From contig NZ_CP012850.1 of assembly GCF_000802205.1 (NCBI RefSeq), positions 3,250,587 to 3,314,586 of the forward strand: DNA of 64,000 nt, given 5' to 3'. A program made the translations under genes and the position numbers. This DNA comes from Candidatus Nitrosocosmicus oleophilus (GTDB taxonomy: Archaea; Thermoproteota; Nitrososphaeria; Nitrososphaerales; Nitrososphaeraceae). This document shows, one piece after another, positions 32,463-38,326 of the stretch; the stretch's first letter is position 1; every line of letters begins with the position of its first letter. The notes under the pieces were generated by a model, which was not told the origin of the DNA, made no database searches, and worked only from the letters and a program-made list of their open reading frames with translations.

Positions 32463-33374
32463 ATGTATAATAAGTTAATAGTTAAAAATATAGAAAAATA
32501 TTCACCAGTACACCAACATGCTGTTATTTATGACTACGAAAAAGGTGAAAAGCTTTGCAAGTCATGTGGTGTCATCGTACAAGATAAGATATATGATGCC
32601 GAGTTGGATACTGATTTTCATAAATATAAAAGCGATACTAACACCGTATTGCCTCATTCCATTATTCTTAATGATAAAGGAATGTCAACAGCAATTGCAG
32701 ATTATGATACAAGTACATCTAAAAGATTTTCAAATAGGAAAGAACATAATAAGATAGAGTTTCTGAATAAAATAGTTAGCTGCTCAAACAAGAAGAGAAA
32801 TTTGAAAATAGTTATAGATCTTTTGAATCGTATAAAAGATAAATTATCCTTGACATCGTTCTGTATAGAAGAAGCACTGTCCTATTACAAGAAGGCATTA
32901 GAAAAGGGACTAATTAAAGGAAGATCAATAAAGGAAATGATTGTTTCATGCGTATATCTAGTTTGCAAGAAAACCAACATTCCAAGAACATTGCCAGAAA
33001 TCTCCCAAATAGTGCAAGCTGATGAAATCTTTGCCGCCAGGTGCTATCGTCTTTTAATGAGAGAGTTAAAAATTACCCATGTACAATTCAAACCAACTAT
33101 TTTTATAAGAAAGATAGCAGACGAGGCAGAAATTAGCGAGAGGACAGCAAGAGAGTCAATAGATTTGCTTTTGGCCATACAAAATGAGAATGTTTTCTCT
33201 GGTAAGAACTCGCTCTCAATCGCAGCAGCCATCCTTTACATAACATGTAGAAAACATAAACAAAAAATATCACAGGCAAAAATCGCTTCGGCAGCTAATA
33301 TTAACATAATGACTCTAAGAAAAAGACTTTCAGAAGTCAAAAATGTAGTAGTAAATGCATCATTTCTTAATTAA
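32463..33374 (+). CDS. tfb: divergent transcription factor B (TFB paralog)
   Basis: TFB bridges TBP and RNA polymerase at archaeal promoters. The two cyclin-fold repeats are clear (KRNLKIVIDLLNRIKDKLSL, then EEALSYYKKALEKGLIKGRS; second repeat starting FIRKIADEAEISERTARES and ending SAANINIMTLRKRLSEV). The N-terminal zinc ribbon is altered: the second pair C32/C35 (CKSCG) is present but the first pair is missing and H17/H19 (PVHQHAV) stand there. The 303-residue length is normal. It is likely one of several TFBs and may serve special promoters. Confidence 0.88.
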   Translation: MYNKLIVKNIEKYSPVHQHAVIYDYEKGEKLCKSCGVIVQDKIYDAELDTDFHKYKSDTNTVLPHSIILNDKGMSTAIADYDTSTSKRFSNRKEHNKIEFLNKIVSCSNKKRNLKIVIDLLNRIKDKLSLTSFCIEEALSYYKKALEKGLIKGRSIKEMIVSCVYLVCKKTNIPRTLPEISQIVQADEIFAARCYRLLMRELKITHVQFKPTIFIRKIADEAEISERTARESIDLLLAIQNENVFSGKNSLSIAAAILYITCRKHKQKISQAKIASAANINIMTLRKRLSEVKNVVVNASFLN

Positions 33375-35238: not shown

Positions 35239-36696
35239 ATGAAAAGAGACGACATTGACAACTCTCAATACGAAAGCACAGATAAGAAAAATAGTAATCC
35301 CAACGGTTTGGATTTATATAAAGATAAAATAGTTATCTTGATCACCGGTGCGAGCGGGTTTATTGGAAGTAGACTATTGAACGAATTAATTGAAAATAAA
35401 GAACATAAAAACTTTAGTTATTCTATACGAGGTTTATCTAGACATAAAATCCAATTTGACATTGAAAAATTAAGGGATTCGAAGGTTCCAGTTGAAATTA
35501 TTGAAGGTGATTTAAGTAATCATAATGATTGCATAAGGGCATTATCAGGTGTTGATATAGCCTATTACCTTGTTCATTCAATGGAAGGGTCATCTAGAAA
35601 TTGGAAAAAATTCTCAGAAAGAGAAAAAATTACTGCTGAAAATTTTAAGAACGCAGCAAATCAATGTAGTGTAAAAAGGATCATCTATCTAGGCGGATTA
35701 ATCTACGGCAAAGACGATGAATTATCTCAACATATGAAAAGTAGAAAACAAGTAGGAGACATATTAAAAAGATCAAAATCCCAGGTAACAATTTTCCGTG
35801 CAGCAGTAATTTTAGGTAGTGGCGGAGGATCATTTGAAATGTTAAGGTATTTGGTGGAAAGATTGCCGTTAATGGTATGTCCTAAATGGGTATTGACAAA
35901 GTGTCAACCAATATTCGTAGGCGATGTAATAACATATCTTTCTAAATCTACAGAGATAAAAGAAACAGAAGGAAGGACCTTCGACATAGGAGGTCCAGAC
36001 ATACTTTCCTATTTAGACATGATGAAGATCTACGCCAAAATTCTTAACAAATCTTTCAAGATACTAATAATCCCTTTTTTGACTCCAAGGTTGTCCTCAT
36101 ATTGGGTAGATTTAGTAACACCTATAAAAGCATCATTAGCTAGACCTTTAATTGACAGTCTAAAGCACGAATCAACAGTAAGAGACGATTCAATTCTCAA
36201 AATTATTCCAACTGAATTGAAATCGTTTAAGGAATCATTAGAATTCTGTATGAAGGAAGAGAAAAAATACAAGAAAAAGGGTACAAGAAATTTGAAGAAA
36301 GAAAGAACATCTCTGTCAATAAATTATAAGATTCTGCTAATTTCTTTATTATTACTACTAGTTATAGGAACTACCTACTATTTTCTGGATGATAGAAAGA
36401 CCTTCTTGGAACCATTTTGGTTATCTATAGCGATCGTTTGGTATATACTAATTTTAACAGCCATTTACTTTGTACGCTTCGGGGCCAGGCTTGGTGCCTT
36501 GATTGCTGGAATACTTGCCTGGGTAACACTATTCTTCTGGATCTTGGATAATGCATATGTTGTATTTGGATATCCAATAATAGCACAAAAACCAGGAGCA
36601 GATGAAACATGGAGAGACATGATTGGCATGATAATTGCAGCCTTTACTATTTTATCAGCACACAATATCTTTCACAAGATTAGACTACATAGCTAA
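35239..36696 (+). CDS. atypical SDR / NAD-epimerase with membrane C terminus
   Basis: The N-terminal 300 residues form an atypical short-chain dehydrogenase: ITGASGFIGSRLLNELI (about 36-52) is the NAD(P)-binding turn, and DIAYYLVHSMEGSS with FRAAVILGSGGGSFEMLRYL are typical of NAD(P)H-binding, DUF2867-type proteins. The catalytic YxxxK is not clear. The last 130 residues hold four transmembrane helices (LLISLLLLLVIGTTYYFL and others). A membrane-anchored reductase or quinone-linked protein is likely; the substrate is unknown. The next gene is a B12-binding protein in the same direction. Confidence 0.78.
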   Translation: MKRDDIDNSQYESTDKKNSNPNGLDLYKDKIVILITGASGFIGSRLLNELIENKEHKNFSYSIRGLSRHKIQFDIEKLRDSKVPVEIIEGDLSNHNDCIRALSGVDIAYYLVHSMEGSSRNWKKFSEREKITAENFKNAANQCSVKRIIYLGGLIYGKDDELSQHMKSRKQVGDILKRSKSQVTIFRAAVILGSGGGSFEMLRYLVERLPLMVCPKWVLTKCQPIFVGDVITYLSKSTEIKETEGRTFDIGGPDILSYLDMMKIYAKILNKSFKILIIPFLTPRLSSYWVDLVTPIKASLARPLIDSLKHESTVRDDSILKIIPTELKSFKESLEFCMKEEKKYKKKGTRNLKKERTSLSINYKILLISLLLLLVIGTTYYFLDDRKTFLEPFWLSIAIVWYILILTAIYFVRFGARLGALIAGILAWVTLFFWILDNAYVVFGYPIIAQKPGADETWRDMIGMIIAAFTILSAHNIFHKIRLHS

Positions 36697-36861
36697 TTTT
36701 CTTTTCCTCAAACGCCGGAGCCATACTGAGACTCAAGAATAAAAGATATCATCGTTTATCCTGAATCGTCATCTCAATAATATTCATCCTTGAGGATATG
36801 AGTTAGCACTAGCTGCACTATTTAGCACTATGTTAATATCTTTGTAACAACATTTAAGAGT

Positions 36862-37779
36862 ATGGTTTTCATACGAGTAAAAAAAGTAAAGGGTTTAGAG
36901 TATTATTACCTGGTGAAGAGCCAATGGGATTCGAAAAGAAAGATATCTATGCAACATACAATAAAATATTTGGGAAAGGCTGCTGATGTAACAATTGACA
37001 GTATTCCTCCAGAATATAAGAATGATCCCAAAATCTTATCCTTGTTAACATCAGTTTCTCAAGAACATGAAAACAAAGTGGTCGTTACAGCAGCATTGAA
37101 AAAAATGGTTTTTGATGCATTAAAGAATGGGGACATCGAAAAGATGGTAGATGTTGCAGGAAAATACAAAGAACAGACAAGCTTGGCTGAATTTTATGAT
37201 GACATTCTGAGACCAGTTCTATATGAGGTGGGATATCTCTGGCAAGAAAATAAATTAGATATTGGAATGGAGCACGTCTGCAGCAACACTGCAAACAAAA
37301 CAATACACAAGATCACTGGTTCAATCAAATCTAACGAAAGAATGGAGAATATCATAATATGTACTCCTGATGGAGAACTCCACAACATAGCCTGCAATAT
37401 TATAGAATCATTACTATTTGAAAAAGGGTTTCGAGTTATTAACGTATCACCTTCAATTCCCACTGATTCAATGATTAACTATATAGATGAAACTAAACCA
37501 GTTATGATACTCATTTCAGTAACTCTTAAAGATAACATAGGTTCGACAGTAAGACTCATAAAAAAGATCAGTACAATATTTAGTATTCCAATTTTGGTTG
37601 GAGGATTAGCCATAAATCATAGTAGTGATATTGAAAGAAAAAACATAGAAGCTACTAGTCCCTGCGTTAGAATAATTGTAAACTCTCCTTTAAGTGCAAT
37701 CGTGAAAACTGTTAAGGGCATAGCCAAGGATAACACCACAAGAAATTTCAAGAATCTTGAACCGGAGTTGATAGTTTAA
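36862..37779 (+). CDS. B12-binding protein with CarH-like photosensor motif
   Basis: The C-terminal 220 residues are a B12-binding cap helix bundle plus Rossmann domain, as in CarH/LitR and corrinoid proteins. The cap shows W127-x9-E137-H138, the 'Wx9EH' signature that holds the adenosyl group in light-sensing CarH. The Rossmann part shows GELHNIA (E172-x-H174), matching the cobalt-ligand motif, and a strand IPILVGGLAINHSSD. There is no MerR-type HTH at the N terminus. Instead residues 1-45 (IRVKKVKGLEYYYLVKSQW then KISMQHTIKYLGK) resemble the start of some IS-family transposases. Output is thus unknown; light or B12 sensing is inference. Confidence 0.8.
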   Translation: MVFIRVKKVKGLEYYYLVKSQWDSKRKISMQHTIKYLGKAADVTIDSIPPEYKNDPKILSLLTSVSQEHENKVVVTAALKKMVFDALKNGDIEKMVDVAGKYKEQTSLAEFYDDILRPVLYEVGYLWQENKLDIGMEHVCSNTANKTIHKITGSIKSNERMENIIICTPDGELHNIACNIIESLLFEKGFRVINVSPSIPTDSMINYIDETKPVMILISVTLKDNIGSTVRLIKKISTIFSIPILVGGLAINHSSDIERKNIEATSPCVRIIVNSPLSAIVKTVKGIAKDNTTRNFKNLEPELIV

Positions 37780-38023: not shown

Positions 38024-38326
38024 CTAGAAATTGTCACCAAAATTTTTCATATTGGAATCTACCTGGTCTTGAGGATTTCCAGTCCCTTTCTGTTTATGTT
38101 CACTCTTATGAACCCTGGCATCCATTGCTTTTTCATGTTCTTCCCGTACATGATGTAATCTATCTTTTTCGTGAATGAATTCTTTTCCACATTTATGGCA
38201 TTTTAAGATTAACTTATGATGAACTGTTTTATAATGATTCATCAAATCTTCCTCAGAACTAAACTTTTCTCCATCAACTTCGCAAGAATATTTTTTATGA
38301 AAGAAATCCACACATCTTCTAGTCAT
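38024..38326 (-). CDS. C2H2 zinc-finger protein (two fingers)
   Basis: A 100-residue protein with an imperfect finger, CEVDGEKFSSEEDLMNHYKTVHH, and a clear one, CHKCGKEFIHEKDRLHHVREEH (about 43-64). A polar tail follows. A likely nucleic-acid-binding protein of the small archaeal C2H2 type, akin to the one at 25304. Confidence 0.75.
   Translation of the reverse strand: MTRRCVDFFHKKYSCEVDGEKFSSEEDLMNHYKTVHHKLILKCHKCGKEFIHEKDRLHHVREEHEKAMDARVHKSEHKQKGTGNPQDQVDSNMKNFGDNF

Follow-up and report, generated by a model that had tools for sequence, protein, structure and literature searches.

A candidate vitamin B12-based light sensor joined to a transposase-like domain in ammonia-oxidising archaea

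Background

The CarH and LitR proteins of bacteria are MerR-family photoreceptor repressors that use adenosylcobalamin, combining a MerR winged-helix DNA-binding domain with a cobalamin module made of a four-helix cap and a Rossmann domain. CarH-type cobalamin modules assemble head to tail in the dark, and CarH binds direct rather than inverted repeats; light releases the adenosyl group and the assembly leaves the DNA (PMC8156234). The light-response signature of the cobalamin photoreceptor domain has been published as four motifs: GxxW, EH, GxxH and GxxxP (PMC11796333). The closest solved cobalamin modules to the one examined here are those of the photocobilins (SasPcob 8j2w/8j2x, AbPcob 8j2y) and of CtMerR (8jbs). 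In Pseudomonas, a class II LitR region includes named genes for photolyase, a short-chain dehydrogenase and an FAD-dependent oxidoreductase (PMC9758184), and DUF1722 is part of RudS, which is reported in LitR-controlled light operons (PMC11417400).

Ammonia-oxidising archaea (AOA) are major nitrifiers, and their sensitivity to light is often discussed without a known photoreceptor or light regulon. We examined a gene from an ammonia-oxidising soil archaeon, Candidatus Nitrosocosmicus oleophilus, within a stretch of 64,000 nucleotides (contig NZ_CP012850.1, positions 3,250,587 to 3,314,586), which we refer to as the window. The initial annotation had proposed that this gene encodes a CarH-like B12 photosensor without a MerR helix-turn-helix, with a start resembling that of some transposases, and that it might be a light or adenosylcobalamin sensor with a new output. 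Our analysis confirms the sequence features on which that proposal was based and supports its interpretation, although adenosylcobalamin binding, the response to light and DNA binding are inferred. It further identifies an upstream operator, a conserved neighborhood and a broad family, none of which had been noted. If the inference is correct, this would be the first archaeal member of a light-sensor type that is so far known to us only from bacteria; the papers on B12 photoreceptors that we read speak of bacteria, and we found no published description of such a family or of an archaeal B12 photoreceptor in a search that covered open papers only.

The cobalamin-binding module

The open reading frame is intact, beginning with ATG and remaining open throughout its 305 codons. 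Pfam assigns two B12-binding domains to it (Table 1), whereas residues 1-70 match nothing and there is no MerR match at E<=1. To ask whether the signature residues could have arisen by chance, we aligned 24 full-length homologues from GTDB genomes, and found G124, W127, E137, H138, E172, H174, S219, T221, G247 and G248 to be invariant. In a wider sample of 58 full-length members, 57 carry GxxWx9EH, 57 carry G[ED]xH and 56 have both, whereas only 2 of 341 other ORFs of at least 200 aa have Wx9EH. Three of the four published light-response motifs are exact in the protein, and the fourth is present as S196xxxP200, lacking a Gly that is reported to make no obvious contact with AdoCbl (PMC11796333).

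Table 1. Features of the focal gene and its surroundings, in window coordinates.
Position (strand)	Feature	Basis
36862..37779 (+)	Predicted AdoCbl-dependent light-sensing transcription regulator, 305 aa (focal gene)	ORF, Pfam, alignment, AlphaFold2 model, profile search
36862..37065 (+)	N-terminal domain, residues 1-68; transposase-N-terminus-like; predicted DNA-binding output domain	Predicted antiparallel beta strands 2-9, 12-23 and 28-39, then helix
37087..37320 (+)		B12-binding_2 (PF02607), residues 82-147, E 2e-10; AlphaFold2 helices 56-88, 92-105, 108-128, 134-153
37231..37275 (+)	GxxW-x9-EH photoreceptor signature: G124, W127 (37240-37242), E137-H138 (37270-37275)	Alignment; signature defined in PMC11796333 and PMC8156234
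37336..37731 (+)	Rossmann cobalamin-binding domain (residues ~159-290)	B12-binding (PF02310), residues 164-250, E 1e-10; alternating strands and helices in the AlphaFold2 model
37372..37383 (+)	G171-E172-L-H174; predicted lower axial cobalt ligand His174	Aligned to GEWH/GDLH of photoreceptor structures
36803..36830 (+)	Operator: direct repeat TTAGCACTA (36803-36811) and TTAGCACTA (36822-36830), 19-bp period	Zero-mismatch pair; conserved before the orthologous gene across families
36833..36839 (+)	TATA-box-like TTAATAT about 26 bp before the ATG; implies a leaderless transcript and an operator over the BRE position	Inference; same geometry in the other promoters
35239..36696 (+)	SDR (NAD-binding epimerase-like) with C-terminal transmembrane part, immediately upstream	Conserved partner gene
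32463..33374 (+)	TFB (TFIIB) paralogue; functional link uncertain	Recurrent neighbor in two families
38024..38326 (-)	Small protein with C2H2 zinc-finger-like motifs, downstream of the focal gene	zf-C2H2 just below cut-off; conserved in close relatives

The same B12-binding fold and a lower-ligand His are also found in methyltransferase corrinoid proteins (MtbC, MttC, the MetH domain), and we asked whether the protein is a better match to these. With the single sequence, NCBIfam models cannot separate the two possibilities (pyl_corrinoid 36.8 bits, CarH 36.0 bits, with MtbC scoring equally), and the CarH score is far below the equivalog cut-off of 400. The family resolves this: CarH is the best model across members, matching 24 of 24 with a best E-value of 3e-18. 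Likewise, a profile search of PDB sequences ranks photocobilin (8j2x/8j2w, 1.2e-18) and the CtMerR photoreceptor (8jbs, 2.7e-18) above corrinoid methyltransfer proteins (1y80, 4e-14; 7xcn, 1.5e-13) and MetH, and in those alignments the W and EH columns are kept in photoreceptors and absent in methyltransfer proteins. The AlphaFold2 model (mean pLDDT 86) matches 8j2w, 8jbs and, a little lower, methionine synthase 1bmt and full-length CarH 5c8d by Foldseek, so fold alone does not separate sensor from enzyme; the residues do. The D/ExHxxG context also differs from that of the methyltransferase proteins, and the other B12-domain protein of this genome, which is MetH-like and 872 aa in length, has GDVHDIG and no Wx9EH.

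The module is nevertheless not identical to that of TtCarH (5c8d). His132 of TtCarH, which lies next to the Trp, is absent from all members checked, and the bis-His light state (PMC8156234) is therefore not expected, although CtMerR and photocobilins reportedly may use other routes. The photocobilins and CtMerR share the W, EH and GxxH residues and, in the alignments obtained, SasPcob and CtMerR also have no His after the Trp, but the archaeal protein has no globin-like biliverdin domain, no GGDEF and no MerR domain. The genome encodes an ATP:cob(I)alamin adenosyltransferase, and AOA are inferred to make cobalamin (PMC7554672), so the chromophore should be available.

The N-terminal domain

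In place of the MerR helix-turn-helix, the protein begins with a predicted beta domain of ~68 aa that is continuous with a long helix into the cap. The alignment shows a second set of invariant residues here (M1, K7, K10, Y14, Y16, V18, W22, Q31, Y36, L37, G38, I48 and P49). No solved structure resembles the domain by sequence or fold; weak hits to the RNA helicase A dsRBD (E 0.4) and to PC4 were not trusted. A profile of residues 1-69 does, however, match short proteins of other archaea of the phylum and the N terminus of a DDE_Tnp_1 (IS4-like) transposase (locus L135 in our set, E 4e-4; shorter relatives down to 5e-11, within the small set searched), aligning a Y-x-Y-x-(L)V/T ... Q/K ... YLG pattern and supporting the resemblance to transposases proposed in the initial annotation. 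No catalytic DDE domain is present in the 305 aa. The domain is basic, with 10 K/R against 3 D/E in residues 1-45, but that it binds DNA is inferred from operator co-occurrence. In this genome the domain also occurs alone, as a 74-aa ORF behind a second copy of the SDR gene (together at contig C1, 1042672-1044474), with one TTAGCACTA half-site upstream, and this may be a DNA-binding-only paralogue.

Distribution and gene neighborhood

We searched 150 genomes of the order that were at least 90% complete, and found the two-domain protein in 64 of them, in Nitrososphaeraceae-type and Nitrosopumilaceae-type genomes (family names that we infer from contig titles and genome size) and in two further families. 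A scan of viral contigs found no relatives, and a plasmid collection gave only ~25% identical bacterial relatives, one of them in a PP2C/STAS neighborhood like photocobilins.

The same 150 genomes hold only 22 photolyase (PF03441) genes, of which 15 lie within 10 kb and 13 within 5 kb of a family gene, where well under one would be expected by chance (binomial about 7e-22). The commonest partner is the SDR-plus-membrane protein, with 38 of 66 copies within 2 kb of the family gene, co-directional here and divergent in most Nitrosopumilaceae-type genomes. Co-occurrence of the family with the SDR (Fisher 1e-18) and with photolyase (Fisher 6e-7) is strong but is not corrected for phylogeny; these tests ignore shared ancestry, though gene orientation differs between lineages. 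Other recurrent neighbors are an FAD oxidoreductase of the desaturase/amine-oxidase kind, a polyketide-cyclase-like protein, DUF1722 and a TFB. Photolyase, SDR, FAD oxidoreductase and DUF1722 match the gene kinds reported for the class II LitR/RudS light regulons of Pseudomonas, although here the organism and the DNA-binding domain of the regulator are different, no LOV partner was seen and DUF1722 stands alone. The genome of the focal gene has no PF03441 photolyase. In one genome (G261) a second full-length copy of the family gene (locus L115, position 8438) lacks Wx9EH and has no paired operator upstream but lies about 3 kb from photolyase, and may be a B12- or light-independent paralogue, like CarA beside CarH.

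A conserved direct repeat at the promoter

Examination of the upstream regions revealed a conserved direct repeat, TTAGCACTA-N10-TTAGCACTA. In the window, the copy before the focal gene is the only match with up to 2 mismatches (0.13 expected). In the whole 3.43-Mb genome there is only one other perfect pair, ~30 bp before a gene for a 65-aa membrane protein (locus L126, 5182-5209, minus strand; contig C1, 1561181-1561208); near-matches elsewhere in the genome with 2 mismatches are near the control rate.

In 61 loci plus two further stretches of this genome we found 134 pairs at a period of 18-20 bp (98 of them at 19), against 7 in the 931 kb of loci read backwards. Of these, 46 precede the family gene itself, 30 precede secreted proteins with GVPxWVKxNAGWWAxG repeats, 9 precede the FAD oxidoreductase, and others precede the SDR, small membrane proteins (including those in loci L091 and L096 of other genomes) and c22, a conserved membrane-protein neighbor. 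The secreted proteins, in which the repeated motif is GVPxWVKxNAGWWAxGTISDGEF (loci L060, L066, L109, L114 and others), are the most frequent targets besides the regulator; their function is unknown, and the one tested had no Pfam match. The second half-site ends about 30 nt before the ATG with a TATA-like box between, so that it covers the BRE of what look like leaderless promoters, and in divergent SDR/family-gene regions there are two mirrored pairs, one per promoter.

Across the 150 genomes the pair is found in 54 of 64 with the gene and in 4 of 86 without it (Fisher 1.7e-25, not corrected for phylogeny). The motif was derived from loci that carry the gene, which favors those genomes, but the control pattern read backwards gives only 5 matches in all 150 genomes. 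One of the four exceptions (G461) has SDR and photolyase too and may simply lack the gene in its draft assembly. We also looked for the operator before photolyase, DUF1722, SRPBCC and TFB genes and found no good pairs, although in several genomes a single TTAGCACTA half-site lies before TFB; control of photolyase is therefore supported only by linkage, and we do not claim it to be direct. Like the operator of CarH, the repeat is direct and overlaps the promoter, but it consists of 9-bp half-sites at a ~19-bp period rather than tandem 11-bp repeats, and it lies at an archaeal TATA/BRE promoter.

Proposed mode of action and alternatives

We consider it likely that the gene encodes an adenosylcobalamin-dependent, light-sensing and autoregulated transcription regulator that works like bacterial CarH/LitR but uses a different, transposase-derived DNA-binding domain; by the defining MerR domain it is not a CarH. 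In the dark, AdoCbl would be held between the four-helix cap, with W127 and E137-H138 around the adenosyl group, and the Rossmann domain, with His174 on cobalt, favoring head-to-tail dimers or tetramers. The N-terminal domains of neighboring subunits would then bind the two repeats, probably keeping TFB/TBP away from the promoter. Light would break the Co-C bond, the assembly would fall apart, and the genes would be switched on: the regulator itself, the SDR and, in other genomes, the FAD oxidoreductase operon, secreted repeat proteins and small membrane proteins. By our estimates regulator function is very likely and light is likely to be the signal, whereas repression in the dark is only somewhat favored over activation; an activator that recruits TFB from the same site is possible. 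In this genome, which lacks photolyase, the regulon may be small: the gene itself, one membrane protein and possibly the SDR. It is more likely than not that this represents a previously undescribed light-response circuit spread across ammonia-oxidising archaea, in which case it would include the first B12 photoreceptor in archaea and a new class of archaeal transcription factor, would show that the sensor module can be joined to a non-MerR domain, and would offer a possible optogenetic switch for archaeal-type promoters.

The domain and operator evidence would apply equally to a regulator that senses cobalamin, either AdoCbl level or B12 status, rather than light, with the upper-ligand pocket used for ligand sensing. 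CarA-like B12 proteins act without B12 or light (PMC8156234), so a cobalamin module need not be a light sensor; we nevertheless regard this possibility as unlikely. Photolyase linkage and a direct-repeat operator support a light-responsive transcriptional output. Less likely still, the repeat could be a promoter element read by a specialised TFB paralogue or another factor while the B12 protein acts elsewhere. The proximal half-site does sit at the BRE position next to the TATA box, and TFB genes are often encoded nearby, but two half-sites at a fixed 18-20 bp period reach beyond TFB contacts, and the operator tracks the presence of the family gene across 150 genomes and is commonest before that gene itself.

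Two further readings are very improbable. A corrinoid methyl-transfer protein with an odd N terminus would be compatible with the single-sequence NCBIfam scores, but is disfavored by the profile ranking and signature residues described above, and no methyltransferase gene was recognised among recurrent neighbors. A decayed domesticated transposase fragment, or an accidental fusion without function, might be suggested by the stand-alone N-terminal ORF and by the few relatives that are frameshifted or carry stops (in genomes G017, G018 and G005). Decaying copies include one with an internal 23-aa deletion, one with a frameshift and others with several stops (L003/L011, L004/L012, G005:C33 and G018:C8), so the gene is being lost in some Nitrosocosmicus. 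Against a decayed fragment or an accidental fusion, however, residues in both domains are invariant across families, and both gene order and the promoter are conserved.
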